From Streptomyces sp. SJL17-4 (GTDB lineage Bacteria > Actinomycetota > Actinomycetes > Streptomycetales > Streptomycetaceae): DNA of 64,000 nucleotides. This document shows, piece by piece, positions 8,190 to 57,193 of this stretch. Every line of letters begins with the position of its first letter. Positions within the stretch are counted from its first letter, which is position 1. The position numbers and the translations under genes are program-made. The notes beneath the pieces were generated by a model that saw only the letters and a program-made list of their open reading frames with translations, had not been told where the DNA came from and did not search any database. Location of the stretch: contig NZ_CP104578.1 in the NCBI RefSeq assembly GCF_036826855.1, positions 2,728,001 through 2,792,000 of the forward strand, written 5' to 3'.

Positions 8190-9728
8190 TCAGGGGTTCT
8201 CGGGAAGGGACCACTCGGGGCTGTTGAGCATGCGCCAGCCCTCACCCGGCTCACCTGCGACGGAGTCGTCCGGGCGCCGGCTGCCGAGCAGGAAGTCGCC
8301 CACCGAGGACTCCTGGAGGTAGTCCAGGCCCAGCACCCGCGCGGACATGTCGGCGTCGCCGTTGCCCAGGGCGCACGGGGCGAGACCGAGGGCCGTCGCG
8401 ACCAGGTACATCGTTTGGTAGAGCACGCCCGTGTGCCGGAGCGTGGTCGCGTAGGCGATGGCCCGGTACTTCCACGACATGCGCTGGAAGCGGGCCGTGA
8501 CGGTGACGAGGACGTCCGGGCGCGCCTCCATGCCGGTGGCCCGGGAGGCCACGTGGAAGAGGGACTCCCGGTCGGCCTCCTCCTCGTTCCGCAGGACGAG
8601 CCGGTGGCCGACGGGGTCGTAGTAGTAGATGCCGGGCGCCAGGCCCTCGCAGCGCCGCACGGTGACGTACAGCTCCAGCTCGTAGCCCTGGCCGCCGCTC
8701 GGGTAGGGGCGGGAGACGACCTCGTCGCGGTCGCTGCCGGGCTCCGGCGTGTAGTGGGCGCGGACGCGCGCGACACGGTAGAGGAACTCGCCGAGCTGGC
8801 GGGCGGTCATCTCCTGGTCGCCGTAGCCCCGGATGGACCGCCGGGTCTCGATCGCCGTGGTGAGGGACGGGTCGTGGGCCGCGATCTCCTCCCGGGTCGG
8901 CCGGTGGAGGGGCACGGCGGGACCTTCGGGGACGGGCCGCACGGCCGGCCGGGGCTCGATGGCTCCCCGGTGGGGGTAGACGGCGCCGAACACGTCGTCG
9001 TACCGGCCGGAGCGGATGCGCGAGTGGAAGAGGAGGTCGTGGAAGTCCCACTGCCGCAGGACGGGTTCATCGTCCGAGGCGAAGGCCCCGCCCTCGTCCG
9101 CGAGTTCGGCGAATCCGGCGCCGACGAGGTGGCCGAGGACATCGGTGGTGCCGGCCGCGTCGAGACCGGCGTCGGCGCCGAGGCGGGCGGGGGTGCCGGG
9201 TTCGCCGAGCGCGGCGGCCAGGGTCCGGGCGGCGGGGTCGGTGAGCACCGCCCGGAAGGTGACCAGCGGCGACTCCAGGACGAGGGCGCCTTCGCGGGTG
9301 CGGCAGAAGGCGAAGCGGGAGAGCCGTACGGTCGCGTCGGCGGGGACGAGGACCGGCACGTACGCGGCCTCGCGTGCCACCGGCTCCAGGCGGAGCAACT
9401 CGCGCTTCCCGCCCCGGGCCAGGACGGCGTGCGCGACCAGGTGCCGGGCGCGGTCGAGGACCCGCTCGAACTGGACGCGCTCGGCGGGGCGCAGCCCCTC
9501 GTACAACTCCTCGGCGGGCCGGGGCCCTTCGGCGAGCCGCTCCAGGGCGGTCCGGACGCCGTCCCGGACGGGGCGGAGGGCGAGGGAGGTGGCGGGCCCG
9601 GCGAGGGTGGCGACGTCACCCCCGCCCGGGGCGAAGAGGACGCGCACGCCGCCGGTGAACGCCGGTACGGCGAGGGCGGGTCCGAGGGGGCGCGGGCCGG
9701 TGTCCGATGGTGTCTGCGTGGTCTGCAC
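8190..9728 (-). CDS. SagB-type azoline dehydrogenase (FMN nitroreductase family)
   Basis: From the GTG at 9726-9728 (GGAGG four bases upstream) the product is 512 residues; the open frame extends further upstream, but that part is Arg/Pro-rich and has no ribosome-binding site. The N-terminal ~230 residues are a divergent winged-helix region typical of long SagB proteins. The nitroreductase core follows at about residue 290, with ETRRSIRGYGDQEMTARQL, YPSGGQGYELELYV, GIYYYDP and the late GLAPCALGNGDADM. SagB enzymes use FMN to oxidise azolines to thiazoles and oxazoles. It completes the azole-forming set with the YcaO and RRE/ThiF genes and lies directly upstream of the two precursor genes. Confidence 0.9.
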   Translation of the reverse strand: MQTTQTPSDTGPRPLGPALAVPAFTGGVRVLFAPGGGDVATLAGPATSLALRPVRDGVRTALERLAEGPRPAEELYEGLRPAERVQFERVLDRARHLVAHAVLARGGKRELLRLEPVAREAAYVPVLVPADATVRLSRFAFCRTREGALVLESPLVTFRAVLTDPAARTLAAALGEPGTPARLGADAGLDAAGTTDVLGHLVGAGFAELADEGGAFASDDEPVLRQWDFHDLLFHSRIRSGRYDDVFGAVYPHRGAIEPRPAVRPVPEGPAVPLHRPTREEIAAHDPSLTTAIETRRSIRGYGDQEMTARQLGEFLYRVARVRAHYTPEPGSDRDEVVSRPYPSGGQGYELELYVTVRRCEGLAPGIYYYDPVGHRLVLRNEEEADRESLFHVASRATGMEARPDVLVTVTARFQRMSWKYRAIAYATTLRHTGVLYQTMYLVATALGLAPCALGNGDADMSARVLGLDYLQESSVGDFLLGSRRPDDSVAGEPGEGWRMLNSPEWSLPENP

Positions 9729-9967
9729 GGTGCCTCCGTGGGCGCGAGGATGACGGTCCGGCGCCGGGGCCGTACGACCCCGGAGGCCGGCGGACGGAAG
9801 GCGCCGCACGCAGGGCAGACGCCGGGCGACACTCTCGCGCGGGGAATCGGGCTCCGATCCGCGCCCGCCGAAATCGGTGACATCTCCTCGGCGATTCATG
9901 ACTCCCGTCATCCCGGATTCCCCGATTCCCCTCCCCACCGGCCGGAATGACCGAGGTCATCGATTGC

Positions 9968-9977
9968 GTGACACATG
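9968..9977. promoter_or_regulatory. Second copy of cluster promoter motif
   Basis: gtgacacatg, the inverse of the motif at 6865-6874. It lies 240 bp upstream of the SagB start and 178 bp upstream of the oxidase start. Its role as a regulator site is inferred. Confidence 0.35.
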
Positions 9978-10047
9978 CAAGAACCGGTGCTCACCCGCTC
10001 GGAGTTCCGCCGGTTCGCGCCCATGCTCGGAGAGCGAATTCACCACC

Positions 10048-10122
10048 GTTCCGAACCACTGTTCCGAACCACCGCCCGATCCACCACGCGATCCACCACC
10101 CGATCCACCACCCGATCCACCG
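10048..10122. repeat. Tandem 12-13 bp repeats upstream of the oxidase operon
   Basis: Two copies of gttccgaaccac spaced 13 bp apart (10048-10072) are followed by four head-to-tail copies of the 12-bp unit cccgatccacca (10075-10122, two copies with one change). They end 32 bp before the GTG start of the multicopper oxidase, so they lie in the leader or promoter. They could be an iterated binding site or simple slippage repeats. Confidence 0.8.
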
Positions 10123-10154
10123 TTCCCGGAAAACCGTCACGTTAGGAATCCGCT

Positions 10155-11615
10155 GTGTTCTCTCGCCGCAACGCGATACGACTCGGACTCACCGCCGGTG
10201 CCGTCGGCGCTGTCGGCGCGGCCGGCGGGGTGTTCCAGAGCCTCACCTCCGGTACGCAGGCGGTGGCCGCCGAGCCGCCCGCCGGCCCGCCCGCGGTCAC
10301 CCCGTTCACCGTGCCGCTGCCCCGGCCGCGGGTCCTCGCCCCGTACCGCCGCACCCGGTCGGCCGACTACTACGCGGTCACCATGCGCAGGGCGCGGGTC
10401 GAGATCCTGCCCGGGCTGCGGACCGAGGTCCTGACGTACAACGGCACGTTCCCCGGCCCCACCATCCGGGCCCGCAGCGGGCGCACGGCCGTCGTGAAGC
10501 AGATCAACGCCCTCTCCGCGCCGACCTCGGTCCATCTGCACGGCGGGAACAACCCGCAGGACCAGGACGGCGGAATGATGGACCTGATCCAGCCGGGCCG
10601 CTCGAAGACGTACGTGTACGCCAACCGCCAGGTGGGCGCCACGCTGTGGACGCACGACCACGCGCACCACATGGAGTCCGAGCACGTCTACCGGGGCCTT
10701 TCCGGGCTCTACCTCCTCGGCGACGAGGCCGAGGACGCGCTCGGGCTGCCCTCGGGGCCGTACGAGGTGCCGCTGATCCTCCGGGACGCGCACTTCGACG
10801 CGGCGGGGCAGATGGTCTACACGATGGACGACGCGCTCAACCGCACGACCATCCTCGTCAACGGGGCCCCGTGGCCGTACATGAAGGTCAAGGCCCGCAA
10901 GTACCGCTTCCGGATGGTCAACTCCTGCAACCTGCGCATCTTCGTGATGGCGCTCTCCGACGGCAGCCCCATCATCCACGTCGGCTCGGACGGCGGGCTG
11001 CTGCCGGCGCCGGCGCCCTCGCCGGTGATCGTCCTCTCCCCCGGTGAGCGCGCCGACTTCGTCGTCGACTTCTCGCGGTACGCGCCGGGGACCCAGGTCA
11101 CCCTGGCGAACATGCTGGGCCCCGGGCCGACCGAGCTCGTCGGGCAGATCATGCGCTTCGACGTCGAGGAGCAGGTGACCGACACCAGCCGGGTGCCGGA
11201 CGTCCTCACCACCCTGCCGCCGCTGCCCACGCCGACCGTGGAGCGGAGCTTCGAACTGCGGATGGACGAGCCGGGCACGGGCCACCTCGCGTACATCAAC
11301 GAGAAGACCTTCGACCACGACCGGATCGACACCGAGATCAAGTGGGGCGCCACCGAGGTGTGGACGGTCAGGAACACCAGCACGACCGTTCCGCACAACT
11401 TCCACACCCATCTGGTGCAGTTCCGCATTCTCGAGCGGGACGGAATGCCGGTCTATCCGGCGGAGGCCGGACTCAAGGACACCGTCCTCCTCTTCCCGGG
11501 GCAGACCGCGAAACTCCAGCTGACCTTCGACACCCACCGCGGGGTCTTTCCCTATCACTGCCACATGATCGACCACAGCGCCATGGGAATGATGGCGCAG
11601 ATGCGTATCTCCTGA
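10155..11615 (+). CDS. Tat-exported multicopper oxidase
   Basis: A 486-residue protein from a GTG start with AGGA nine bases upstream. The N-terminus (SRRNAIRLGL plus a hydrophobic stretch) is a Tat signal. Copper ligands of all four conserved blocks are visible: HLH in SVHLHGG, HDH in WTHDHAHHM, HNFHTH near residue 415, and the C-terminal HCHMIDHSAMGM block with type-1 copper ligands. These enzymes take electrons from phenols or aminophenols and reduce oxygen to water. It is the first gene of an operon with an acid ligase and 3,4-AHBA synthesis genes, so an o-aminophenol-type substrate is plausible by analogy with phenoxazinone synthase. Copper homeostasis or a general laccase role remains possible. 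Confidence 0.88.
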   Translation: MFSRRNAIRLGLTAGAVGAVGAAGGVFQSLTSGTQAVAAEPPAGPPAVTPFTVPLPRPRVLAPYRRTRSADYYAVTMRRARVEILPGLRTEVLTYNGTFPGPTIRARSGRTAVVKQINALSAPTSVHLHGGNNPQDQDGGMMDLIQPGRSKTYVYANRQVGATLWTHDHAHHMESEHVYRGLSGLYLLGDEAEDALGLPSGPYEVPLILRDAHFDAAGQMVYTMDDALNRTTILVNGAPWPYMKVKARKYRFRMVNSCNLRIFVMALSDGSPIIHVGSDGGLLPAPAPSPVIVLSPGERADFVVDFSRYAPGTQVTLANMLGPGPTELVGQIMRFDVEEQVTDTSRVPDVLTTLPPLPTPTVERSFELRMDEPGTGHLAYINEKTFDHDRIDTEIKWGATEVWTVRNTSTTVPHNFHTHLVQFRILERDGMPVYPAEAGLKDTVLLFPGQTAKLQLTFDTHRGVFPYHCHMIDHSAMGMMAQMRIS

Positions 11616-44307: not shown

Positions 44308-46884
44308 CTAGCGGAGCAGCACCCCCGCCCCCGCCCCCGTCGTCTCCTCCGGCAGGGCCACCAGGCCCAGTTCCGCCGGGTGGGCGAGGAGCGGATGGGA
44401 GGGGCGGACGCGGACCGTGCAGCCGAAGGAGCCGGTGCGGTCGAGCGCCAGGGTGCCCGCGTACGGCTGCCGGCCCTCCAGGTCCGGGCCGCCCGCCGGC
44501 TTCAGCGGGACGGTTCGGGTGTCGGCGAGGGTGTCGTCGGCGTCGACCCGGCCGGTGACGGCCTGCACCTCGACGTCGTCGGGGGTGAGGGCGCCGAGGG
44601 CGACCCGGACCCGGACGACCGGTGTCGCGCCGAGCTCCGCGTCGTCGAGGTCGTCCGCGAGGTCGTCGCCGACCTCGACGTGGTCGACGGTCACCTTGGG
44701 CCAGGCCTCCCGGACCCGCGCCTTCCAGGCCGCGAGGTCCCGCGCCCGGTCCGGGGTGAGCGCCCGGCGGGCGGCGGCGGCGGGGACGTAGAGCCGTTCG
44801 ACGTACTCGCGGACCATCCGGTCGGCGAGCACCTTCGGGCCGAGGTCGGTGAGGGTGCGGCGGACCATCGCCGTCCAGCCGGCCGGGACGCCGTCGGGGC
44901 CCCGGTCGTAGAAGCGGGGGGCGACCCGGCGTTCGATCAGCTCGTAGAGCGCGGCGGCCTCCAGGTCGTCGCGGCGGTCCTCGTCCGCGGCGGCGGCCCC
45001 GTCGGCGGTGGGGATGGCCCAGCCGAAGTCCGGCTCGAACCACTCGTCCCACCAGCCGTCGAGGACGGAGAGGTTGAGGCAGCCGTTGAGCGCGGCCTTC
45101 ATGCCGCTGGTGCCGCAGGCCTCCAGGGGGCGGAGGGGGTTGTTGAGCCAGACGTCGCAGCCGGGGTAGAGGCCGCGGGCCATCGCCATGCCGTAGTCGG
45201 GCAGGAAGACGATCCGGTGCCGGACCCGGGGGTCGTCGGCGAAGCGGACGAGTTCCTGCACGAGCCGCTTCCCGCCGTCGTCGGCGGGGTGGGCCTTGCC
45301 GGCGACGACGAGCTGCACGGGCCGCTCGGGGTGCAGCAGCAGCGCCCGCAGCCGGTCCTTGTCCCGCAGCATGAGGGTGAGCCGCTTGTACGAGGGGACC
45401 CGGCGGGCGAAGCCGATGGTGAGGACGTCGGGGTCGAGGACGGAGTCGGTCCAGCCGAGTTCGGCGGCTGCCGCTCCGCGCTGCCGCCAGGAGGCCCGCA
45501 GCCTCTCCCGTACGTCGGTCACGAGCCGTTCGCGCAGGGTGCGGCGGAGTTCCCACAGCTCGCGGTCGGCGGGGTCGGGGCCGAGCCGGCCGACCTCGGG
45601 GGCGACCCAGGTGGGAGCGTGGACGCCGTTGGTGATGGAGGTGATCGGCACCTCGTCGGCGTCGAAGCCCGGCCAGAGCCCGGCGAACATGGCCCGGCTG
45701 ACGGCCCCGTGGAGGGTGGAGACGCCGTTGGCGCGCTGGGCGAGGCGCAGGCCCATGGCCGCCATGTTGAAGAGGCCGGGCTCGCCGCCCAGCGGGGTCT
45801 CGTCGCCGAGGGCGAGGACCTTACCGGTGTCGACGCCGGGGAGCGCGCCGTCCTCGCCGAGGTGGCGGGCGACCAGGGTGCGGTCGAAGCGGTCGATGCC
45901 GGCCGGGACGGGCGTGTGGGTGGTGAACACGGTTCCGGCGCGCACGGTCTCCAGGGCGCTGTCGAAGTCGAGTCCCCCGCCCTGGAGTTCGCGGATGCGT
46001 TCGAGGCCGAGGAAGCCGGCGTGGCCCTCGTTGGTGTGGAAGACCTCGGGCGCGGGGGTGCCGGTGAGCCGGGTGTACGTACGGACGGCGCGGACGCCGC
46101 CGATGCCGAGCAGCATCTCCTGGAGGAGCCGGTGCTCGCTGCCGCCGCCGTACAGCCGGTCGGTGACGCTCCGTTCGCCGGGCGCGTTCTCCTCGACGTC
46201 GGAGTCGAGCATGAGGAGGGGGACGCGGCCGACCTGGGCGATCCACAGGTGGGCGTGCAGGCTGCGCCCGCCGGGCAGGGCGAGGGTGATCCGGGCGGGG
46301 GCACCGTCGGTCTCGCGCAGCAGGGTGACCGGCAGCTCGCCGGGATCGAGGACGGGGTACTGCTCCTGCTGCCAGCCGTCCCGGCCGAGGGACTGGCGGA
46401 AGTAGCCGTGCCGGTAGAGCAGTCCGACACCGATGAGCGGGACGCCGAGGTCGCTGGCGGACTTGAGGTGGTCGCCGGCGAGGATGCCGAGGCCGCCGGA
46501 GTACTGGGGCAGGGCGGCGGTGACGCCGAACTCGGGCGAGAAGTAGGCGACGGCGGCGGGCGCGTCGGCTGTTCGTTCGGAAGCCCGCTGGTACCAGCGG
46601 GGGGCGTGCAGGTAGGTGTCGAGGTCCTCGGCTGCGGCCCGGAGCCGGGCCAGGAAGTCCTGGTCGGCGGCGAGCGCGGCGAGCCGGGGGCCTTCGAGGG
46701 CGCCGAGGATCCGGACGGGGTCGGTGCCGCCGGACGGCGCCGCCGGGCCGGGAAGTTCGAGCGATTCGAAGAGGGCGCGGGTGGGTTCGTGCCAGGACCA
46801 GCGCAGGTTGTGCGCGAGGTCGGCGAGGGGTCGAAGGGTGTCGGGGAGGACGGGACGCACGGTGAATCGACGGATTGCCTTCAC
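44308..46884 (-). CDS. glgP: Alpha-glucan phosphorylase
   Basis: 858 residues from the GTG at 46882-46884 (AGGTGG upstream). The N-terminal ~110 residues are the DUF3417-type region of actinobacterial phosphorylases (LRPLADLAHNLRWSWHEPTRAL). The GT35 core includes LGILAGDHLKSASDLG, FHTNEGHAGF, and the pyridoxal-phosphate site CGTSGMKAALNGCLNLSVLDGWW. It releases glucose-1-phosphate (or acts on maltose-1-phosphate-related glucans) by phosphorolysis. In S. coelicolor, as I recall, glgP lies directly beside glgE; here an ~8 kb block separates them. Confidence 0.94.
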   Translation of the reverse strand: MKAIRRFTVRPVLPDTLRPLADLAHNLRWSWHEPTRALFESLELPGPAAPSGGTDPVRILGALEGPRLAALAADQDFLARLRAAAEDLDTYLHAPRWYQRASERTADAPAAVAYFSPEFGVTAALPQYSGGLGILAGDHLKSASDLGVPLIGVGLLYRHGYFRQSLGRDGWQQEQYPVLDPGELPVTLLRETDGAPARITLALPGGRSLHAHLWIAQVGRVPLLMLDSDVEENAPGERSVTDRLYGGGSEHRLLQEMLLGIGGVRAVRTYTRLTGTPAPEVFHTNEGHAGFLGLERIRELQGGGLDFDSALETVRAGTVFTTHTPVPAGIDRFDRTLVARHLGEDGALPGVDTGKVLALGDETPLGGEPGLFNMAAMGLRLAQRANGVSTLHGAVSRAMFAGLWPGFDADEVPITSITNGVHAPTWVAPEVGRLGPDPADRELWELRRTLRERLVTDVRERLRASWRQRGAAAAELGWTDSVLDPDVLTIGFARRVPSYKRLTLMLRDKDRLRALLLHPERPVQLVVAGKAHPADDGGKRLVQELVRFADDPRVRHRIVFLPDYGMAMARGLYPGCDVWLNNPLRPLEACGTSGMKAALNGCLNLSVLDGWWDEWFEPDFGWAIPTADGAAAADEDRRDDLEAAALYELIERRVAPRFYDRGPDGVPAGWTAMVRRTLTDLGPKVLADRMVREYVERLYVPAAAARRALTPDRARDLAAWKARVREAWPKVTVDHVEVGDDLADDLDDAELGATPVVRVRVALGALTPDDVEVQAVTGRVDADDTLADTRTVPLKPAGGPDLEGRQPYAGTLALDRTGSFGCTVRVRPSHPLLAHPAELGLVALPEETTGAGAGVLLR

Positions 46885-47013
46885 GCGTTCCACCTTCGCA
46901 GGCGAGTACGGAGCGGAGTGGACGCACCACGCTGTGCGTCCGTCGTTCCGCTCAGACGTTAGGGCACACCGTTCCCGCCGCGCGACGGCGCACGGGGAGC
47001 GGTGGGGCGCGTG

Positions 47014-48405
47014 TCAGCCGATGGCCGGGAGGGGGACCTCGTAGGGGGAGCCCTGGTTCACGCTCGCCGGGTCGAAGGCGGCGGTGGTGGCGTACCGGCA
47101 GGCGATGGCGGCGAGTTCCTCGGCGGGGATGACCTGGTGGATGTCGGTGAAGCCGTGCGGGGCGCGCGCGTGCACGAGGTCGATGACGACCTCGGGGCCC
47201 CGTTCCCGGTTGGCCCGCTGGAGCGCGGTGGTGACGGGGCGGCGGTCCCGCTCGTACGCGGCGAGGCCGTCCTCGGGGTCGGCGTGCCGGGCGAGGGCGT
47301 GGGCGAGGGCGCGCGCGTCGACGATCGACTGGGTCGCCCCGTTGGAGCCGATCGGGTACATGGCGTGGGCGGCGTCGCCGATGAGGGTGGTGCGGCCGTG
47401 GGTCCACCGGTCCAGGGGCTCGCGGTCGACCATCGGGTACTCGTACGCGGAGTCGGCGGCGCGCAGGATGTCGGGGACGCTGACGCCGTCGAACTCCCAG
47501 CCCTCGTAGAACGGGAGGAACGTCTCCACGGGGACGGGCCTGTTCCAGTCGCCCAGGAACCGCTCCTCCCCCGGCGCCGTCCCGGACCCGCAGGTGCGCT
47601 CCGCCGGGCGGGCGAGCGCCCAGTTCACCAGGACCTCGCGGTCGGGCCCGGTCGGCCGGCCGATCGGGTAGACGACGGCCTTCTGCCGGTCGTCGCCGGC
47701 GATGAGCATGAACGAGCCCACCGCACGCGCCGGCATCCGGGACACCCCCCGCCACACCAGCATCCCGTTCCAGGGCGGCCCGCCCTCCCCCGGGTGCAGC
47801 GCCGCCCGTACCGTCGAGCGGATGCCGTCCGCGCCGACGAGCACGTCCGGTTCGAGGGAGGCACGGCCGTGCACGGCGCCCTCCCGGTGTTCGAGCCGCA
47901 GTCGGGGCCGCCCGTCCGGTGTCGGCTCCACGCCGCTCACCCGGACCCCGGTGACCAGGGCCGCGGGGCCGAGCCTGGCCCGTACCGCGCCCGCGAGGAC
48001 CTGCTGGAGGTGCCCGCGGTGGACCGAGAGCTGCGGCCAGCGGTAGCCCGCGCCGAGGCCGCGCGGCTCCCGGGATATCAGCCCGCCGGAGCGGTGGTAG
48101 TAGCGCAGTTCGCGGGTGCGGAGGGCGCCCGCCTCCAGGGCGTCGAGCAGGCCGAGCGCGTCCAGTTCGCGGACGGCGTTCGGCATCAGGTTGAGCCCGG
48201 CGCCGACCGGGCGGATCGCGGGTGCCGTCTCGACGACCGTCACCCGCTCGAAGCCGGCGGCGTGCAGGGAGAGGGCGGTGGTGAGGCCGGCGATGCCACC
48301 GCCGGCGATCACGATGTGCGGGCTCTGCCCATAGTCCGGCGCGTAGTCCGGCGTGGGGCGGCGGCCGTGGACCGGCGAGAACACGGAGGGGGTGTGGGGG
48401 GACAT
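47014..48405 (-). CDS. FAD-dependent monooxygenase (salicylate hydroxylase/PhzS-like)
   Basis: 463 residues; ATG at 48403-48405 with GAAGGAG upstream. The group A flavoprotein hydroxylase motifs are present: dinucleotide fold IVIAGGGIAGLTTALSLHAAG (~31-51), VLVGADGIRSTVR near 200, and GDAAHAMYPIGSNGATQSI near 330. Such enzymes hydroxylate aromatic substrates with NAD(P)H and O2. Last gene of the four-gene PrnB-type operon, 22 nt after the PrnB-like gene, so it probably oxidises an indole- or pyrrole-derived product. Substrate not deducible. Confidence 0.88.
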   Translation of the reverse strand: MSPHTPSVFSPVHGRRPTPDYAPDYGQSPHIVIAGGGIAGLTTALSLHAAGFERVTVVETAPAIRPVGAGLNLMPNAVRELDALGLLDALEAGALRTRELRYYHRSGGLISREPRGLGAGYRWPQLSVHRGHLQQVLAGAVRARLGPAALVTGVRVSGVEPTPDGRPRLRLEHREGAVHGRASLEPDVLVGADGIRSTVRAALHPGEGGPPWNGMLVWRGVSRMPARAVGSFMLIAGDDRQKAVVYPIGRPTGPDREVLVNWALARPAERTCGSGTAPGEERFLGDWNRPVPVETFLPFYEGWEFDGVSVPDILRAADSAYEYPMVDREPLDRWTHGRTTLIGDAAHAMYPIGSNGATQSIVDARALAHALARHADPEDGLAAYERDRRPVTTALQRANRERGPEVVIDLVHARAPHGFTDIHQVIPAEELAAIACRYATTAAFDPASVNQGSPYEVPLPAIG

Positions 48406-48427
48406 GACGACTGCTCCTTCGGCGCCG

Positions 48428-49537
48428 CTACGCGGCCGACGGCCCGACGGGGGCCCCTGCGGGACGGCGCCGCACGGTCGCGCGGCGCACCATGGTCTCG
48501 TTCTCCCTGGTCAGATCCAGGATCGAGCGCAGCAGCGCGACCGGGGCCCCGCCGCTGCCCTCCTCGTACAGCCGCGTCTCCTCGCTGTACGCCTTGCGGG
48601 CGATGCCGAGGTGCCGGGCGCGGAAGGTCTTCAGGAGGCGCAGCACCCGGCCGAGTGCCTCCGCCGACGCGGTCAGCGAGGGCGGCAGCCGGTCCGCGCC
48701 CTCCCAGCTGACGGCGGCCGACAGCTTGCTCACCGCCGACACCCCGCCCCGGTGCCGGGCGTGGAAGGCGCGCCAGGCCGGCAGCGCGTACGGCACGGAC
48801 TCCGTGAGGAAGGCCTCGTAGGCGGAATCGGAGCGGTCGCACTGCCACAGCGTCAGATCGACGAGCCAGAGCGGCACCTGTGCGGCGGCCGGACCGAGGT
48901 AGTCCCGGCCGTCCACCTCGATCTCCTCGAAGTAGGGGCGCAGGGCGACCGCGAAGAACTCCGGCGACACCTGCGCCACCGTGAGGTCGATGGAGTCGAC
49001 CATCGCCCGCACGTGGCGGGCCACCCGGTCCAGGGCGGTGGCGAAGCCCGGGTCGTACGGTTCCAGGCGGGCGACCCGGCCGCAGTCGTCGAGCGCGGCG
49101 ACGAGGCCGGGGAAGACCATCCGTACGGCGTCCTGGAGCCGGGCCTCCGTCGGATGGCCGGTGTACGAGCGGCGGCGCCGGCCGGGCGGGTTCCAGGTGG
49201 TGTAGTGGTGGACGGTGTCCCTGGGCACCATGTCGGTGCGGCGGCCCAGGAGTTCGAGGACGGGCAGCGCTTCGGGGACGGCGGCGAGGGGCTGGACGCC
49301 GTGCCGCTTCAGTGAGCCGAGCAGGATGCCGAGGTCCCGCATCGCGGCGAGCGCGTGACCGACGCTCCACTGGGCGGCACGGTCGATGTCCGGCACGAGG
49401 GCGCGCAGTGCGACGGTGAGCGCGGCGACGTCGGCGTCGGCGTTCATGGTGGGCACGGCGGCGAGCAGGCCGTCGGCGCCGAGCGGGTCGGCGGCGCGTA
49501 TGTCCTCGGTGCGATGGCGCGGATCGCCCAACAGCAC
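48428..49537 (-). CDS. prnB: PrnB-like haem enzyme (aminophenylpyrrole synthase family)
   Basis: 369 residues from GTG with GGAGGAG upstream. The sequence matches the pyrrolnitrin enzyme PrnB along its length: AAMRDLGILLGSLKRHG (~64-80), TTWNP and RSYTG (~113-127), DYLGPAAAQVPLWLVD (~212-227), and FRARHLGIARKAY with His309 at the position of the PrnB proximal haem ligand. PrnB rearranges 7-chlorotryptophan to monodechloroaminopyrrolnitrin, and relatives accept tryptophan. No halogenase (PrnA, PrnC) or arylamine oxygenase (PrnD) is present here, so the product is likely unchlorinated. Confidence 0.88.
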   Translation of the reverse strand: MLLGDPRHRTEDIRAADPLGADGLLAAVPTMNADADVAALTVALRALVPDIDRAAQWSVGHALAAMRDLGILLGSLKRHGVQPLAAVPEALPVLELLGRRTDMVPRDTVHHYTTWNPPGRRRRSYTGHPTEARLQDAVRMVFPGLVAALDDCGRVARLEPYDPGFATALDRVARHVRAMVDSIDLTVAQVSPEFFAVALRPYFEEIEVDGRDYLGPAAAQVPLWLVDLTLWQCDRSDSAYEAFLTESVPYALPAWRAFHARHRGGVSAVSKLSAAVSWEGADRLPPSLTASAEALGRVLRLLKTFRARHLGIARKAYSEETRLYEEGSGGAPVALLRSILDLTRENETMVRRATVRRRPAGAPVGPSAA

Positions 49538-49705
49538 GGGGGCTCCTCCTTTTTGAAGGCTCGGTTCCCCTCCGGGGCGCTGGTGCGACTGTCGACGGTC
49601 GACCGTGCTCGGTCCCTCGTTCCTCGGGACCTCCGCGCGCTCTCCCTCACGACAGCCGCGCGCCCCTTCGGCTCGCTCGCCTGGTGGTGTCGGGCATCGT
49701 GCTGG

Positions 49706-51145
49706 TCAGCGGTGTTCCGGGACCTCTTTCCCTGAGGGCGGCGAAGCCGGCGGGGTCGGTCTCGGCGGGTGGAGGCGTACGGAGGCGAGGGCGGCCGCGG
49801 CGGCGAAGGCGGCGCCGGTGAGCAGGGCGGCGCGGTATCCCGACGTCTCGGCGGCGGCGCGGGCCGCGTCGACGGCTTCGGTACGGCTCGTGGCGACGGC
49901 CACCAGGACGGCGAGGCCGAGGACGGCACCGAACTGCTGGCTGGTGTTGACGAGTCCGGAGGCGAGTCCGGTCTCCTCGCCCGCGGCCTCCGCCGTCGCC
50001 GCCACGTTGGTGGTGACCATGACGAGCGGCAGGGCGGCGCCCAGGAGCAGGCTGGGGGCGAGGACGGTGCTCGCGAAGCCGCCGTCGGGGGTGAGCGCCA
50101 GGGCCAGCCACAGCGTCCCCGCACTCAGCAGCACGAACCCCAGGGTCATCGTCCGGTGCAGACCCATCCGGTAGATGAGCCGGCCGGTCTGCGGGGCGAC
50201 CGCCACGACGACGAGCGACAGCGGCAGCAGGCCCAGACCGCCGCCGAGGGGCGAGTACCCCAGCACGTTCTGGAGGTAGAGGCTGACCAGGAAGAACATC
50301 GGGAACAGGGTCGTCTGGGCGAGCGCGGCCAGGGTGTTGGACAGCCGGAGCGCGGGCCGGGTGAGAACGGACGGCGGGACGAGCGGCGCGGCTGCCCGGG
50401 ACTCGACGGCGGCGAAGGCGAGCAGCAGCGCGAGGCCCGCTCCTCCGGCGCCGAGGGTACGGGCGGACAGCCACCCGGCGTCGGCGGCGCCGACGAGCGC
50501 GTAGGCGACGAGTCCGAGTCCGGCGGTCGCGGTGAGCGCCCCGGCGAGGTCGAAGCCGCCGTGCCGGCCGGGGCCGGTGCGGCGGTCGAGGACCAGCGGG
50601 GCGAGGGCGGCGAGGGCGGCCGCGAGCAGCACGTTCAGCCAGAACGTGGAGCGCCAGCCGAGCAGGTCGGTGACGACGCCGCCGAGGACCGTGCCGAGGA
50701 CCCCGCCGAGGCCGCCCATCGCGGCGAACGCGCCGAGCGCCCGGTGCCGGGCGGGCCCGTCGGGGAAGAGCAGGAGCAGCAGGGCGAAGGCGGCGGCCGC
50801 GGCGAGCGCGGCGCCGACGCCCTGGGCGGCGCGGGCCGCGACGAGGGCGTCGGCGCCGGGGGCGAGACCACCGGCGGCGGAGGCGACGGCGAGCAGGCCG
50901 AGGCCGCCGAGGAAGACCCGCCGGTGGCCGAGGAGGTCGGCGATCCGGCCGCCGAGGAGGAGGAGTCCGCCGAAGGTGATGAGGTAGGCGTTGGCGACCC
51001 AGGAGAGTCCGGCGGAGCCGGCGGTGAGGTCCTCGCCGATGGACGGCAGTGCGACGTTGACGATCGCGGTGTCCATGATGAGCAGGAGTTGGGTGGCGGC
51101 GAGCAGGGCGAGCGCCCCGCGCCGTGGTGCCGGTGCCGTCGTCAC
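49706..51145 (-). CDS. DHA2-family MFS exporter of the PrnB operon
   Basis: 479 residues from the GTG at 51143-51145, which overlaps the stop of the upstream hydroxylase gene. About fourteen hydrophobic segments, with motif-A-like GGRIADLLGHRRVFL and motif C-like GGLGGVLGTVLGGV. Operon position suggests export of the pathway product and self-protection. A 168-bp gap separates it from the PrnB-like gene. Confidence 0.88.
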   Translation of the reverse strand: MTTAPAPRRGALALLAATQLLLIMDTAIVNVALPSIGEDLTAGSAGLSWVANAYLITFGGLLLLGGRIADLLGHRRVFLGGLGLLAVASAAGGLAPGADALVAARAAQGVGAALAAAAAFALLLLLFPDGPARHRALGAFAAMGGLGGVLGTVLGGVVTDLLGWRSTFWLNVLLAAALAALAPLVLDRRTGPGRHGGFDLAGALTATAGLGLVAYALVGAADAGWLSARTLGAGGAGLALLLAFAAVESRAAAPLVPPSVLTRPALRLSNTLAALAQTTLFPMFFLVSLYLQNVLGYSPLGGGLGLLPLSLVVVAVAPQTGRLIYRMGLHRTMTLGFVLLSAGTLWLALALTPDGGFASTVLAPSLLLGAALPLVMVTTNVAATAEAAGEETGLASGLVNTSQQFGAVLGLAVLVAVATSRTEAVDAARAAAETSGYRAALLTGAAFAAAAALASVRLHPPRPTPPASPPSGKEVPEHR

Positions 51146-52572
51146 CGGGTCGTCCCGAGGCCGTAGCCGTCGAGGCAGGCCTGCGCGAGGTTCTCGCAGT
51201 CGTCGGCGGCGCCGGCCCAGGTCTGCATGGTCAGGTAGACGTGCGGGGCGCCGTGGTAGAAGCGCTCGTACTGCTCGTGGCGGCCGGCGAACTCGGAACC
51301 GAGGGCGTCCCAGGCGAGCTTGAGGAGTTTGACGCGGTCCTCGGCGGGGTGGCCGGGGGTGCCGAAGTAGCGGCGGACCAGGGGCCCGAGTTCGGGGTGG
51401 AGGAGGTCCTGGCCGCTGGCGGGGAGCTGGACGAGGGCGCCGCCCGCGAGGAGCCTGATGTCCTGGACGGCGCGCGGGTAGAGCTCGCCGGCCATGATCC
51501 GCTGGGCGAAGGAGATGTCCTGCCCGGGGCGGACGCCGCCGCGCCCGCCGTCGACCTCCTCGTACGCGGCCTCGGCGGCGAGCACGAAGGCCTTGGCCTG
51601 GGCGACCATGCCGAGGAGCCGGCCGACGGCCTGGGTGACGGGCGGGAGGTTCTCGGTGCCGTTCGCGCGGGTGATGAGGATCGCGAGTCCGGTGAGGAAC
51701 TCCAGCTTGGTCCAGAAGCGGGTCGCGGACTGGTGGACGAAGTTGAGGTAGGCGGGGGTCTGCCACCAGACGGCGCCGGTGGTGGCCGGGTCGCGGTGGG
51801 TGAGGACCCGTTCCCAGGGCACGAAGACGTCCTCGCACACCAGCATCGCGTCGTTCTCGTCGTACCGGGAGGACAGCGGGTGGTCGAAGACGGACCGGGA
51901 CCGTTCCTCGTAGGAGGTGCGGGAGATCAGCCTGAGGCCGGGGGTGTCGGGCCGTACGGAGAAGGTCACGGCGTGCGCGAGGTCGTCGGCGGCGAGCGGC
52001 TCGATGGTGCCGACGAGGATCTCGTCGGCGAAGACGGCGCCCGTGCCGACGGTCTTGGCGCCGCGAACGACGATCCCGCCGTCCCGTTCCGCCACGACCC
52101 GCAGCGTGAGGTCCTCGCCGCCGTGCCCCGGGGGCGGGTTGCCGAGGGTGAACGCGCAGTGCAGATCGCCCTCGGTGAGCCGGCGGTGGAGGGCGAGGGC
52201 GTGCTCGGCGCCGTCGAAGGTCCCGCCGGTGAAGACGGCGGGCGCGGCGGCGAACCCGGCCGCTCCGGCCGCCATGTAGTCGGGGGTGCGGCCGAGGAAG
52301 CCGAAACTGGCCCGGGCCGTGGTGCGGAAGGCGCGGCGGCGGGCGACGAGGTCCTCGTACGAGCGGGGCACGGCGTACGCGCGGCGCACCCCGCCCTGGA
52401 CGAGGACGGGGTGGTGGACGGGGTCGTCGGCGAGGTCGTAGAGGCCGGCGAAGGAGGCCGCGGTGGACCGGAAGGCGGGGTGGGCGGTGACGTCCTTGAC
52501 CCGTTCCCCGTCGAGCCAGATCTCGCGCCCGTCGCGCAGCCCCTCCAGATACTCCTGCCCGGACCTCGTCAC
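51142..52572 (-). CDS. HpaB-type FADH2-dependent aromatic hydroxylase
   Basis: 476 residues of the 4-hydroxyphenylacetate 3-monooxygenase large-subunit family. N-terminal SGQEYLEGLRDGREIWLDGERV is diagnostic, and the acyl-CoA-dehydrogenase-like fold follows (IVVRGAKTVGTGAVFADEILVG; DVFVPWERVL). HpaB enzymes hydroxylate phenols using FADH2 from a separate reductase, which is not seen nearby. In natural-product clusters they hydroxylate tyrosine- or tryptophan-derived rings. First gene of the operon; start GTG with GGAGAGG ten bases upstream. Confidence 0.9.
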   Translation of the reverse strand: MTRSGQEYLEGLRDGREIWLDGERVKDVTAHPAFRSTAASFAGLYDLADDPVHHPVLVQGGVRRAYAVPRSYEDLVARRRAFRTTARASFGFLGRTPDYMAAGAAGFAAAPAVFTGGTFDGAEHALALHRRLTEGDLHCAFTLGNPPPGHGGEDLTLRVVAERDGGIVVRGAKTVGTGAVFADEILVGTIEPLAADDLAHAVTFSVRPDTPGLRLISRTSYEERSRSVFDHPLSSRYDENDAMLVCEDVFVPWERVLTHRDPATTGAVWWQTPAYLNFVHQSATRFWTKLEFLTGLAILITRANGTENLPPVTQAVGRLLGMVAQAKAFVLAAEAAYEEVDGGRGGVRPGQDISFAQRIMAGELYPRAVQDIRLLAGGALVQLPASGQDLLHPELGPLVRRYFGTPGHPAEDRVKLLKLAWDALGSEFAGRHEQYERFYHGAPHVYLTMQTWAGAADDCENLAQACLDGYGLGTTR

Positions 52573-52720
52573 CGGTGTATCGCCTCTCCTCGGGTGTCAC
52601 GGCTCTGCCGGTCCCGAGCCTGTCCGGGGCGACCCGTCCGGACAATGAGCGTCCGTCCAGGGGTCCTTAAGAACCGGCCAGGGAGTCCCGAAGATGTCAG
52701 GTCGGTGGAGCCGGGGCGGC

Positions 52721-52823
52721 GCGGACGCCCGGAGGGCACCGCCCGGACCGTCGCCGCGGACGCCCGGAGGCACCGCCCGGACCGTCGGCGCGGACGCCCG
52801 GAGGCACCGCCCGGACCGTCGGC
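52721..52823. repeat. Three ~34-bp tandem repeats between AraC and HpaB genes
   Basis: Copies begin at 52721, 52756 and 52790 with the shared start gcggacgcccggagg and end caccgcccggaccgtcg; spacing 35 and 34 bp. They sit in the 285-bp gap that must hold the operon promoter. Apart from these repeats nothing else is seen in the gap. Confidence 0.85.
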
Positions 52824-52857
52824 CGCCGGCCGTTCCGGAGGGCCGGTCCGCCTCTTC

Positions 52858-53841
52858 TCAGGCGGCCCGGTCGGCTCCCGCGCGGTACTCCCCCGGGGTC
52901 ACCCCGAACCATTTGCGGAAGGCGAGGTGGAAGCCGACGGCGCTCTGGTAGCCGACGCGGGCGGGCACCGCCGACTGCGGGAGGGAGGTCTCGGTGAGGA
53001 GCCGGCCGGCCTCCTGCATCCGGCGGGCGGCGAGGTACCGGGCCGGTGACTCGCCGACCAGGTCGCGGAAGGAGGCCGTGAACGCGGAGCGGGACATGCC
53101 GACCTCCCGGGCGAGGAAGTCGATGGTCCAGGGTTCGGCGAACCGGGTGGCCATCATGACGACGGCCCGGCTGATCCCGGGGTGCCGGAGCAGCGGCAGC
53201 GACGCCGGGTTGCCCGCGAGTTCGCGGAGCAGCGGCCGGAGCGCCAGGACCAGGGCCATCTCGAAGGCGCGCAGGGTGATGAGCCGGTCGCCGGGGCCGA
53301 CGGGCCGGTCGGGGGCGGCGAGCAGCCGCAGGGTGTCGCGGAGCAGCGGCTCCCGGTCGACCTGGGGGCCGTCGAGGACGAGTGCCCAGGGCAGCGAGGT
53401 GTAGAGGCCGGTGGCGGCGCTGGCGTCGTAGTGGAGCCCGGCGCAGAGCAGCCGGCTCTCGGGGCCGTTGCCCTCGATGACGATCTCGCCGGAGGTGCCG
53501 GGTTGCCGCTCGGGCAGCACGGCCTTGAGCGGGAGCCCCTGGCGTTCGGGCCGGTCGGAGAGGCGGTGCGCGGTGCCGGTCGGGAAGACGACGAGGTCGC
53601 CGGCGTGCAGTTCGACCGGGGCCTCGTCCTCGGTGGTGATCCAGCAGTCGCCCTCGACGACGTAGTGGAGGACGGCGCAGCTGCGTTCGGCGTCGCCCTC
53701 GATGGCCCAGGGGGCGCGGACGTGCCAGCGGCTGTCGAAGACTCCGGTGAGCCGGAGGGGTTTGAGCAGTTCGCTCAGCAGGTCGTCCTGCTCGTCCTGC
53801 TCGGGCTGCTGTGCGTGACGGTCGGTTCCCACGATTGCCAT
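52858..53841 (-). CDS. AraC-family regulator with cupin domain
   Basis: 327 residues, ATG with GAAGGAT upstream. An N-terminal cupin (VEGDCWITTEDEAPVELHAGDLVVFPTGTAHRL) is followed by a C-terminal AraC double helix-turn-helix: FLAREVGMSRSAFTASFRDLVGESPARYL and AVPARVGYQSAVGFHLAFRKWFGVTPGEYR. This type often controls a divergent reductase gene; it is divergent from the NmrA-like gene. Whether it also controls the PrnB-like operon downstream is open. Confidence 0.9.
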   Translation of the reverse strand: MAIVGTDRHAQQPEQDEQDDLLSELLKPLRLTGVFDSRWHVRAPWAIEGDAERSCAVLHYVVEGDCWITTEDEAPVELHAGDLVVFPTGTAHRLSDRPERQGLPLKAVLPERQPGTSGEIVIEGNGPESRLLCAGLHYDASAATGLYTSLPWALVLDGPQVDREPLLRDTLRLLAAPDRPVGPGDRLITLRAFEMALVLALRPLLRELAGNPASLPLLRHPGISRAVVMMATRFAEPWTIDFLAREVGMSRSAFTASFRDLVGESPARYLAARRMQEAGRLLTETSLPQSAVPARVGYQSAVGFHLAFRKWFGVTPGEYRAGADRAA

Positions 53842-53959
53842 GGACGATCCTTCAACTTCCGCCCCGGTTTGTTAATTGAACGGCCGAAGCCGTGGCGGCG
53901 AGCCTGGAACGACGCCGACACGACAGCCGGGAAAGTCTATCGAAGGGCCTCAGACACAC

Positions 53960-54886
53960 ATGTCCAGTGAGAATCCGATGCGGGTGGCGGTCGTGGGCGC
54001 GACGGGGTTCCAGGGGGGTGCGGTGGCCCGTCTGCTCGCCGAACGGCACCACCGGGTCCGCACCCTGACGCGGCGCCCGTCGGCGGACCGGCCGCCGCTG
54101 CCGGGGGCCTTCTTCCTCGCCGGTGACCTGGGGCGGCCGGACGACGTCCGGCAGCTCTTCGAGGGGGCGACCCACGCGTTCATGACGATGCCGCTGGTGT
54201 ACGAGAGCGAGCGGGTGGAGGCGTACGCGCGGAACGTCGCGCAGGCGGCCCTGGAGGCGGGCACGGAGCGGCTGGTCTTCAACGCCAACACCCGGATACC
54301 GCTGGGTCCGACGGATGTGGCCGCCTTCGAGACGCGCCGGCTGGCGGAGCGGGTGCTGCGGGACAGCGGGGTGCCGCTGGTGGTGATCCGGCCGCCGGTG
54401 TACCTGGACAACCTGTTCTCGCCGTGGAACGGGCCGGCCCTGGTCGACGACGGGGTGCTCGCCTATCCGCTGCCGGCGGCCGCGCGGACGGCGTGGCTGT
54501 CGCACCGGGGTCTGGCGGAGGCGGCGCTCGCGGCGCTCACCCGGGAGGAACTGGAGGGCCGGACGTTCGACATCGGCGGCGAACGCTCGCTGACGGGCGG
54601 CGAGCTCGCGGCGGCGTTCGGCCGGGGGCTCGGCCGGGCGGTGCGGTACGAGGAGCTGGATCCGGCCGCTTTCGAACGGAGCCTCGCCCAGCTGCTCGGC
54701 CCGGAGACGGCGGCCGGGGTGGCCGGGATCTACCACTTCATGGCGAGCGGCGTCGATCCGCTCCTGATGGCGGACGACGACGGCGTGTCGACCGAGGTCC
54801 TGGCCCTCGAACCGCCCCCGGTGGAGGAATGGGTGGCCCGCCAGCCCTGGCAGGTCTGGTCTTCAGATACGTCCCCACAGCGCTGA
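53960..54886 (+). CDS. NmrA-like NAD(P)-binding protein
   Basis: 308 residues. N-terminal Rossmann motif VAVVGATGFQGGAVARLLAE is the NmrA/atypical SDR type, without YxxxK catalysis. Family members include quinone reductases and redox sensors. The ATG at 53960 has only a weak GAAGGG upstream; the ATG 18 nt later is an alternative. Divergent from the AraC gene. Confidence 0.85.
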   Translation: MSSENPMRVAVVGATGFQGGAVARLLAERHHRVRTLTRRPSADRPPLPGAFFLAGDLGRPDDVRQLFEGATHAFMTMPLVYESERVEAYARNVAQAALEAGTERLVFNANTRIPLGPTDVAAFETRRLAERVLRDSGVPLVVIRPPVYLDNLFSPWNGPALVDDGVLAYPLPAAARTAWLSHRGLAEAALAALTREELEGRTFDIGGERSLTGGELAAAFGRGLGRAVRYEELDPAAFERSLAQLLGPETAAGVAGIYHFMASGVDPLLMADDDGVSTEVLALEPPPVEEWVARQPWQVWSSDTSPQR

Positions 54887-55111: not shown

Positions 55112-57189
55112 ATGCCCGCAACCCGTCGGCCGTCGACGGAGCTAGAAAGAGCGCACAACCACCACCCGCACCCCCGTAACCCGTCAGGTGATGCTGTGAA
55201 TCCGCTCATGGGACGCATTCCCGTACTGGACGTACGCCCGCTGGTCGACTGTGGCCGGCGCCCCGCCAAGGCGGTGGCCGGAGAGACCTTCGAGGTGACG
55301 GCGACCGTCTTCCGCGAGGGCCACGACGCGGTCGCCGCCAATGTCGTGCTGCACGGCCCCTCGGGCCGCCCCGGCCCCTGGACCCCGATGCGCGAACTGG
55401 CCCCGGGCACCGACCGCTGGGGGGCCGAGGTCACCCCGGACTCCGAGGGCCTGTGGACGTACACCGTCGAGGCGTGGAGCGACCCGGTGGCCACCTGGCG
55501 CCACACGGCGAAGATCAAGATCCCGGCCGGGATCGACTCCGAACTCGTCCTCGCCGAGGGCGCCGAGCTGCACGAGCGGGCCGCGAAGGGCGTACCGAAG
55601 AAGGGCGGCGCCCGGGAGGCCGTGCTCGCCGCCGCGGACGCGCTGCGCGACGCGTCCAGGCCGGCCGCGGTCCGGCTCGCGGCGGCCCTGAACCCCCGGG
55701 TCGTCGAGTCCCTCGACCGTCACCCGCTGCGCGAACTCCTGTCGGCCTCCCCGGCGTTGCCGCTCCAGGTGGAGCGGGAGCGTGCCCTGTTCGGCTCCTG
55801 GTACGAGTTCTTCCCGCGCTCGGAGGGCGTACGGAAGGTCAAGGGGCGTACGGTCCCGGGGAACTTCCGCACGGCCGCCGAGCGGCTCCCGGCGGTGGCC
55901 GCGATGGGCTTCGACGTGGTCTATCTGCCGCCGGTGCACCCGATCGGCGAGACCCATCGCAAGGGCCCCAACAACTCCCTCTCCGCGGCGCCGAACGACG
56001 TCGGCGTGCCGTGGGCGATCGGCTCGCCGGAGGGCGGCCACGACGCGCTCCACCCGGACCTGGGGACCTTCGAGGACTTCGACGCCTTCGTGGCGCGGGC
56101 CCGGGAGCTGCGTCTGGAGATCGCCCTGGACTTCGCGCTCCAGTGCTCGCCGGACCACCCGTGGGTGGAGAAGCACCCGGAGTGGTTCCACCACCGTCCG
56201 GACGGTTCGATCGCGTACGCCGAGAACCCGCCGAAGAAGTACCAGGACATCTATCCGATCGCGTTCGACGTGGACATGGACGGGATCGTCGCGGAGACCG
56301 TGCGGATCCTGAGGCACTGGATGGACCACGGGGTACGGATCTTCCGCGTCGACAACCCGCACACCAAGCCGGTGGTGTTCTGGGAGCGGGTGATCGGCGA
56401 GATCAACGCCGCCGACCCGGACGTGATCTTCCTGGCGGAGGCCTTCACCCGGCCGGCGATGATGCGGACGCTCGGCGCGATCGGCTTCCAGCAGTCGTAC
56501 ACGTACTTCACCTGGCGGAACACCAAGGAGGAGCTCACGGAGTACCTGACGGAGCTGTCCGGCGAGACGGCGGCGCAGATGCGGCCGAACTTCTTCGTGA
56601 ACACCCCGGACATCCTGCACGCCTACCTCCAGGAGGGCGGCCGGCCGGCGTTCGAGGCGCGCGCGGTGCTCGCGGCGACGCTGTCGCCCTCGTGGGGCAT
56701 GTACGCGGGGTACGAGCTGTGCGAGGGCACGCCGCTACGGGCCGGCAGCGAGGAGTACCTCGACTCGGAGAAGTACCAACTGAGGCCACGGGACTGGGAG
56801 TCGGCGGAGCGGGCGGGGACGACCATCACTCCGCTGATCACCGCCCTGAACCGGATCAGGCGCCGTCACCCGGCCCTGCGCCGGCTGCGGAACATCACCT
56901 TCCACGACACGGACAACGCGCAGGTGATCGCGTACAGCAAGCGATCGGGTTCGAACACCGTTCTGGTGGTCGTCAACCTCGACCCGCACCACACCCAGGA
57001 GGCGACGCTCTCGTTGGACATGCCGGAACTCGGCCTCGACTGGCACGAGACCGTGCCGGTGCGCGACGAGCTCACCGGCGAGACCTATCACTGGGGCAGG
57101 ACCAGCTACGTGCGCCTAGAGCCGGGTGTCACACCCGCGCACGTCCTCGTCCTGCGACCGTCCCCGCAGACCGGAGGGTCACCCACATC

Positions 57190-57193
<4 letters not shown>
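55112..57193 (+). CDS. glgE: Alpha-1,4-glucan:maltose-1-phosphate maltosyltransferase
   Basis: 693 residues from the ATG at 55112 (AGGAG upstream), beginning MPATRRPS, similar to S. coelicolor GlgEI. N-terminal domain [15 protein letters not shown] ([13 protein letters not shown]), a GH13 barrel with [28 protein letters not shown], nucleophile Asp414 in [11 protein letters not shown] and acid Glu443 in [10 protein letters not shown]; the 29-residue spacing equals that of Asp394/Glu423 in S. coelicolor GlgEI. It extends alpha-1,4-glucan with maltosyl units from maltose-1-phosphate. Coupled to treS by ATGA. Confidence 0.97.

Follow-up and report, generated by a model that had tools for sequence, protein, structure and literature searches.

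What would a homologue of the pyrrolnitrin enzyme PrnB do in an organism whose genome yields no match to the pyrrolnitrin halogenases? The question is raised by a locus of Streptomyces sp. SJL17-4, in a 64,000-nucleotide stretch (hereafter the window; positions 2,728,001 to 2,792,000 of contig NZ_CP104578.1, assembly GCF_036826855.1) taken from one 8.54-Mb contig. As a preliminary description had reported, four genes, all on the minus strand and supported by Pfam, follow one another there: an HpaB-type flavin-dependent monooxygenase (51142-52572, 476 aa; PF11794, PF03241), which is the first gene of the unit, a predicted DHA2/EmrB-like MFS exporter (49706-51145, 479 aa; PF07690, E 1e-42), a PrnB homologue, that is a His-ligated haem enzyme (48428-49537, 369 aa; PF08933), and a FAD monooxygenase (FMO) of the PRK07538 subfamily (47014-48405, 463 aa), directly 3' of prnB. 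In our reading, to which we give roughly an even chance, PrnB would rearrange plain L-tryptophan to a 3-(2-aminophenyl)pyrrole-type core, either 3-(2-aminophenyl)pyrrole or a carboxylated form, the FMO and then, presumably, HpaB would oxygenate this arylpyrrole, and the predicted MFS pump would export the product. The aminophenylpyrrole-type pathway suggested earlier stays plausible in this form, as a halogenase-free PrnB operon that may make a tryptophan-derived arylpyrrole.

Using the Pseudomonas piscis proteins as queries, we found no match for PrnA or PrnC anywhere in the genome at E<=1e-5, the PrnA query having been controlled by its matches in the genome that it came from and in a Streptomyces genome, and the PrnC query having been run without such a control. 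For PrnD a single match was recovered, elsewhere in the genome, 25% identical over residues 29-166 of 363 and not convincing. The absence of halogenases noted for the operon thus extends to the surroundings of the window and to the whole genome, and halogenases encoded elsewhere and acting in trans were considered and not found. The Trp_halogenase family PF04820 has three matches in this genome, at 23-26 bits, and also matches in five of 14 control genomes. The FMO is one of the three (25.1 bits, cut-off 21), with a match confined to residues 31-89 of 463, the start of the FAD-binding region; a full-length match to this family is lacking.

The PrnB homologue scores 129.5 bits against PF08933, for which the cut-off is 27, and its closest named relatives are from Streptomyces. 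By alignment, the haem-ligand histidine pointed out in the preliminary description is His309 (48611-48613), equivalent to His313 of PfPrnB, and the carboxylate-binding serine is Ser328 (48554-48556), equivalent to Ser332. The predicted structure has the PrnB/IDO fold, with PrnB nearest in the model; an identity as IDO was discarded because PrnB structures matched better by about 12 Z units, and TDO was not among the 50 matches listed in the comparison. PrnB had been supposed to require chlorinated tryptophan, a supposition contradicted by the available part of PMC11791213, where L- and D-tryptophan are alternative substrates of the enzyme.

PF08933 was found in 36 of 295 Streptomyces genomes, in 32 of 293 genomes of an order-wide draw (all 32 from Streptomyces) and in two of 396 genomes of a phylum-wide draw, namely the window's own and one whose sequence fits the Pfam model much better than the window's does. 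All four genes are present in 24 of the 36 PrnB genomes, so that the halogenase-free four-gene set occurs together in 24 of the 295, or about one in twelve of the Streptomyces genomes sampled. A close HpaB (64-100% identity) exists in these same 24 genomes, every one of them PrnB-bearing, and the next matches are at 44% or less, five candidates having been scored per genome. The 36 loci comprise 21 of type A (the four genes next to the glgP-like gene), including the window, one further type A locus in which HpaB is cut short and MFS is gone (L049), three of type B, three of type C (PrnB-FMO with a methyltransferase), seven of type D and one decayed locus (L040); for types B, C and D, Pfam identified one or two representatives of each gene family, and the names were transferred by clustering. 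In all 22 type A loci of this survey glgP adjoins the unit, a constancy which suggests that type A has been inherited in place. Every gene is matched over at least 80% of its length in one frame in 23 of the 24 four-gene loci, the exception being L032. With 80 named loci added (the best 80 of 118 from one scan), 52 of 54 four-gene loci reach this one-frame coverage for every gene, and the PrnB histidine is retained in all 54 but L044. Merging of 13 near-identical pairs between the two overlapping locus sets leaves 43 distinct type A four-gene loci and six of type B; the count of 52 of 54, like those of 94 of 95 and 59 of 59 given below, precedes this merging, and the counts take no account of relatedness. 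Recurrence in the same order in many genomes argues that the gene set is not a product of chance. Type D (L050, L054, L056-L060) contains GHMP-kinase-like, methyltransferase and pyridoxal phosphate (PLP)-decarboxylase-like genes in seven of seven loci by clustering, and also a glycosyltransferase-like protein; its PrnBs are distant, the three that were aligned being 28-31% identical.

The GTG start of the MFS gene gives a 4-base overlap with the end of HpaB, 168 bases separate MFS from PrnB and 22 bases separate PrnB from the FMO. These distances define two tight pairs, HpaB-MFS and PrnB-FMO. The gene order of the operon proposed at the outset is upheld, and it recurs in other genomes; the four genes would presumably form one transcript. 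No promoter- or terminator-like site was detected in 46700-54100, a result of little information given that shuffled sequences led us to expect 1.4 terminators and 0.0 promoters. The GC content at third codon positions (GC3) of 0.95-0.97 in HpaB, PrnB and FMO supports their coding status; the MFS gene, which reaches 196 bits against TIGR00711, under the cut-off of 230, is missed by a simple GC3-based caller. Open frames of up to 641 aa on the plus strand opposite the operon (within 47002-53049) are not picked by that caller and look like by-products of the very high GC3.

The FMO scores 82 bits against PF01494 and 507.1 bits against the NCBIfam model of the PRK07538 subfamily (NF005720, cut-off 400), and its closest solved protein is PDB 2rgj/3c96 (E 2e-86), which we take to be PhzS. 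It directly follows PrnB in 64 loci spanning types A, B and C. In Streptomyces litmocidini (L049, L140) HpaB is cut short, to 86 residues in L140, and MFS is gone, with PrnB and FMO kept; in L141, L146 and L155 the MFS match is absent and the enzymes are retained, the HpaB and PrnB matches lying 126-385 bases apart. This adjacency in three cluster types and the retention of the pair despite loss of HpaB or MFS indicate that PrnB-FMO is the conserved core, and make the FMO the obvious candidate enzyme for a second step, or else a candidate redox partner of PrnB. PrnB catalyses one of the odder haem reactions known. The actinobacterial branch, in which the FMO nearly always adjoins it, offers a concrete candidate partner and a new substrate context.

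HpaB scores 256.6 bits against PF11794 (E 3.9e-76) and 180.9 bits against PF03241 (E 2.1e-53), above the Pfam cut-offs, and 254 and 256 bits against the equivalogs TIGR02309 and TIGR02310, below their cut-offs of 480 and 885. Its nearest solved relatives are 4oo2 and 6b1b. It retains the RTPDY motif's Arg and Tyr, and Phe141 (52150-52152) aligns with His155 of Escherichia coli HpaB and His142 of the Thermus thermophilus enzyme. In the E. coli protein Arg113, Tyr117 and His155 are the substrate residues. Phe stands at the phenol site in 59 of 59 rows of the window-type HpaB family; among 20 other Streptomyces HpaBs, drawn from weaker search matches, His is present in 15 and Tyr in five. As Phe replaces the phenol-site His, the enzyme is probably not an ordinary phenol hydroxylase, and a simple phenol is probably not its substrate. 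The assignment as an ordinary HpaB was rejected both on the equivalog cut-offs and on this histidine. The operon has no flavin reductase gene; the genome has four PF01613 genes, all outside it.

The best indication that tryptophan is the substrate comes from type B, whose PrnBs are about 55% identical to that of the window. Six such loci are known to us, three in Streptomyces (L036, L038, L041) and three in Streptomyces sp. SA15, Kitasatospora aureofaciens and Plantactinospora endophytica (L159, L161, L165), with an AraC gene followed by the order FMO2-HpaB-MFS-NmrA-ketosynthase-PrnB-FMO-DsbA-BBE-IGPS. The NmrA gene is inside the operon in all six, the DsbA protein is FrnE-like and BBE, a berberine-bridge-type oxidase, is present in five of six, no copy having been found in the Plantactinospora locus. 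The ketosynthase is a stand-alone enzyme of polyketide synthase (PKS) type, the L165 copy having 7zma as best solved match (E 2e-151); a literature search on the PDB codes of the best match returned no paper. Indole-glycerol-phosphate synthase (IGPS) forms the indole of tryptophan, and a second copy of its gene is also present in other antibiotic clusters that draw on tryptophan. Two, two and three IGPS genes were counted in three genomes with type B, and one each in three with type A. This extra IGPS points to tryptophan, at the distance that 55% identity implies. A trpD-like gene (c25) beside type B was set aside and only IGPS counted, because c25 is encoded on the opposite strand, within what we take to be a core trpD neighbourhood.

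In the part of PMC11791213 available, Tyr104 of FbPrnB occupies the position of Val117 of PfPrnB and shrinks the pocket. The window PrnB has Tyr112 (49202-49204) at this position, and 134 sequences divide into 112 with Tyr, 21 with Val and one other. Homologues of prnA and prnC are found in 21 of 21 Val loci, and 94 of 95 Tyr loci contain no match to PrnA, PrnC or PrnD at E<=1e-3, the 95 being 116 loci minus the 21 with Val and including some short ones (L163, 3.4 kb; L099, 8.7 kb); L072-L088, with a flank of only about 1.5 kb, were left out of this halogenase search. Val or Tyr at this one pocket position thus distinguishes the PrnBs encoded in prn clusters from the remainder. The stricter statement that a Tyr-type PrnB never lies beside a halogenase gene is not absolute, given L040. 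That decayed Streptomyces locus (5786-6286, 9281-10290) holds a frame-broken Tyr-type PrnB, a PrnA-like stretch corresponding to residues 349-524 of 538 and containing a stop, a class-III aminotransferase and a chorismate mutase, and may be what is left of a halogenating PrnB cluster of this genus.

In a tree made by a quick method without bootstrap, with its root placed on type D and a warning for the meeting of long branches, the eight rows with Val group together (support 99, starred), with the Tyr-type Cystobacter sequence P0168 as sister (93), and both stand beside the Bacteroidota PrnBs (96). The window falls in a type A clade (100) within an actinobacterial group (98), apart from the Val and Bacteroidota sequences. 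Four P rows of the tree's 'prn' group come without neighbourhood data, and the type C labels of L083 and L084 are guesses from short loci, both being placed elsewhere, next to L154. As Val is confined to one clade, the Val/Tyr split counts as one evolutionary event at most, and its distribution argues that chlorination is a special case and not the rule. The preliminary description had hydroxylation taking the place of chlorination. Since PrnB accepts tryptophan, halogenase-free PrnB loci are widespread and the Val type is one clade, such a replacement is unsupported; the conserved partner is the FMO, HpaB is lost in places and has Phe at its phenol site.

We propose tentatively, as a wider scheme that we think somewhat less probable than its opposite, that halogenase-free PrnB chemistry is older and commoner, that the pyrrolnitrin chlorines were gained once, in the clade with the pocket enlarged by Val, and that actinobacteria start from plain tryptophan and, with an FMO resembling PhzS and an HpaB of the Phe type put to a new use, make a so far unisolated class of hydroxylated aminophenylpyrroles, which a ketosynthase would extend in Kitasatospora and Plantactinospora. 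The PrnBs of Bacteroidota (Dyadobacter, Fulvivirga, Pseudochryseolinea, Reichenbachiella and others; L089-L105, L107, L128) and of the cyanobacterium Cylindrospermum (L104) are all of Tyr type, and no prnA, prnC or prnD match was found within the flanks fetched for them. In Burkholderia metallica (L109:7741-9294) and Citreicoccus inhibens (L112:9234-10772), the prnA homologue is inverted and only 58% and 48% identical to Pseudomonas prnA, prnC being 91% and 78% identical in the same two genomes; the first step there may involve another halogenase or have had a history of its own.

Several observations weigh against the arylpyrrole scheme. Identity between the window PrnB and PfPrnB is no more than 36-37%, and the window protein belongs to a separate actinobacterial clade, so that its reaction may differ from that of PfPrnB. 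Purified PrnB was inactive according to the portion of PMC11791213 at hand, which puts forward the absence of redox partners or of other components of the cell as the cause. A database relative (P0028) is a PrnB without the histidine, P0172 has Cys at the pocket position, and in L044 the PrnB frame is lost before the histidine. The Val/Tyr split amounts to a single Val clade whose nearest row, P0168, has Tyr, and L040, the only exception among Tyr loci, has its truncated PrnA-like stretch beside PrnB. The 168-base gap between MFS and PrnB offers space for a separate promoter, and two of the 54 four-gene loci have one gene in pieces (the FMO in L032, MFS in L157). The FMO does not directly adjoin PrnB in L132 (Streptomyces sp. 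adm13(2018)), where no FMO match lies downstream of PrnB and 102 N may mark an assembly gap, or in L160 (Streptomyces sp. DH12), where there is no HpaB or MFS match and the FMO match starts 458 bases past that of PrnB; type D, L154 and L168 have PrnB homologues without such an FMO or HpaB. No product is known for this operon type, none having been detected for a Streptomyces venezuelae cluster in the text available (PMC9769785), and other His-haem enzymes hydroxylate tryptophan instead. One of these, the tryptophan 5-hydroxylase Luz15, is counted among the members of a haem-dependent enzyme family (PMC13036774).

This last point is the basis of the main alternative, in which the PrnB homologue, like Luz15, hydroxylates the indole of tryptophan without any rearrangement to a pyrrole, and HpaB or the FMO oxidises the resulting hydroxytryptophan. 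For a second oxygenase, a hydroxylated aromatic would be nothing unusual as a substrate, and the IGPS evidence fits this scheme equally well. Besides Luz15 as precedent for haem-dependent 5-hydroxylation of tryptophan, the same source, as far as its text was available, has a PrnB homologue in a Paenibacillus lipopeptide cluster predicted as a tryptophan hydroxylase (PMC13036774). We consider this alternative rather unlikely, and the most serious of those weighed here.

A detoxification or catabolic operon, in which the haem enzyme and flavoenzymes degrade an aromatic compound and MFS and NmrA provide resistance, would suit the AraC/cupin, MFS and NmrA genes, which are also usual in stress and efflux loci, and the single chromosomal place next to glgP in 22 of 22 type A loci is as often seen with vertically inherited functions. 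Type B, however, looks biosynthetic, with its dedicated IGPS and PKS-type ketosynthase, and MFS is absent in L141, L146 and L155 where the enzymes persist; we judge this explanation improbable.

Less probable again, and the least supported of the biosynthetic schemes, is that HpaB (or the FMO) hydroxylates tryptophan first and that PrnB then rearranges hydroxytryptophan as PfPrnB does 7-chlorotryptophan. In its favour, HpaB heads the unit and PrnB is present in 24 of 24 genomes with a close HpaB. Yet PrnB and FMO remain where HpaB is cut short (L049, L140) or missing (L160), type C is a PrnB-FMO pair without HpaB, and to our knowledge no HpaB acts on tryptophan. PrnB moreover accepts tryptophan itself, and Tyr in place of Val117 shrinks the pocket (PMC11791213, in the part available), which would leave less room for a ring substituent. 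That most strains carry a decaying or non-functional operon is most improbable, for despite the HpaB and MFS losses in some strains, the PrnB ends out of frame in L044 and L088 and the fragmented FMO of L032 and MFS of L157, 52 of 54 four-gene loci are intact at 80% length or more and the PrnB histidine is kept in all but L044.

AraC/cupin and NmrA-like genes, absent from the preliminary description, accompany the four-gene set. Upstream of the operon lies a gene for an AraC-family protein with a Cupin_6 domain (52858-53841, minus strand; PF12852, PF12833), a putative regulator, present by clustering in 23 of 36 PrnB loci. Divergent from the operon is the gene for an NmrA-like NAD(P)-binding oxidoreductase (53960-54886, plus strand; PF05368, E 1.9e-25; best PDB match 5f5l, E 7e-19), which may have an (imino)quinone-reducing or oxidising role. 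The unit is flanked by a glgP-like alpha-glucan phosphorylase gene (44308-46893) and by glgE (55112-57193).

The statement that such a set had not been described proved too strong. Protein records already bear the PrnB family name, and cluster 17 of S. venezuelae NRRL B-65442 (RS25415-25435) is tabled as 'Pyrrolnitrin-like?', with no metabolite detected and a transcriptome entry of 'None' under ethanol shock (PMC9769785); in the text available this is a table line, without gene analysis. From its five locus tags and from its PrnB (P0021), 87% identical to that of the window, cluster 17 is probably the same operon. Among the titles and abstract openings listed in our literature search, which for one query covered 40 of 51 papers, we found none that analyses this combination of genes, type B, the residue in the pocket or an HpaB of the Phe type. 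A chlorine-free aminophenylpyrrole has been obtained from a gliding bacterium whose extract, according to the part of the paper available, held no pyrrolnitrin intermediates, and its authors regarded the compound, unless it came from a separate pathway, as a dead end branching off pyrrolnitrin synthesis (PMC2630848). Should the product of the window operon be a chlorine-free hydroxylated phenylpyrrole, it would represent a natural-product family near a known antifungal scaffold, in about one in twelve of the Streptomyces species sampled.

Compared with the pyrrolnitrin cluster prnABCD of Pseudomonas, Burkholderia, Serratia and myxobacteria, the window operon shares the modelled PrnB fold, the histidine ligand, the substrate serine and a small set of oxidative enzymes, but has HpaB, FMO and MFS instead of PrnA, PrnC and a convincing PrnD, and its PrnB belongs to an actinobacterial clade with Tyr for Val in the pocket. 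FbPrnB and the Bacteroidota PrnBs share this Tyr, and the fetched Bacteroidota loci likewise lack prnA, prnC and prnD in their flanks; unlike the window, they have no HpaB, FMO or MFS relatives that we could find, and any link between enzyme and product there is hypothetical. We take the gliding bacterium mentioned above (Rapidithrix, with 3-(2'-aminophenyl)-pyrrole and marinoquinoline A) to be a member of the Bacteroidota. With the HpaB-type two-component hydroxylases (6b1b, 2yyg and 4oo2, the last presumably SgcC), the window HpaB has in common the fold family and the substrate Arg and Tyr of RTPDY, and differs in the family-wide Phe for the phenol-site His and in having no reductase gene in its operon. 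Finally, the 2rgj/3c96 monooxygenase, the closest solved relative of the window FMO, is presumably PhzS of phenazine synthesis, whereas the window FMO is linked to PrnB.

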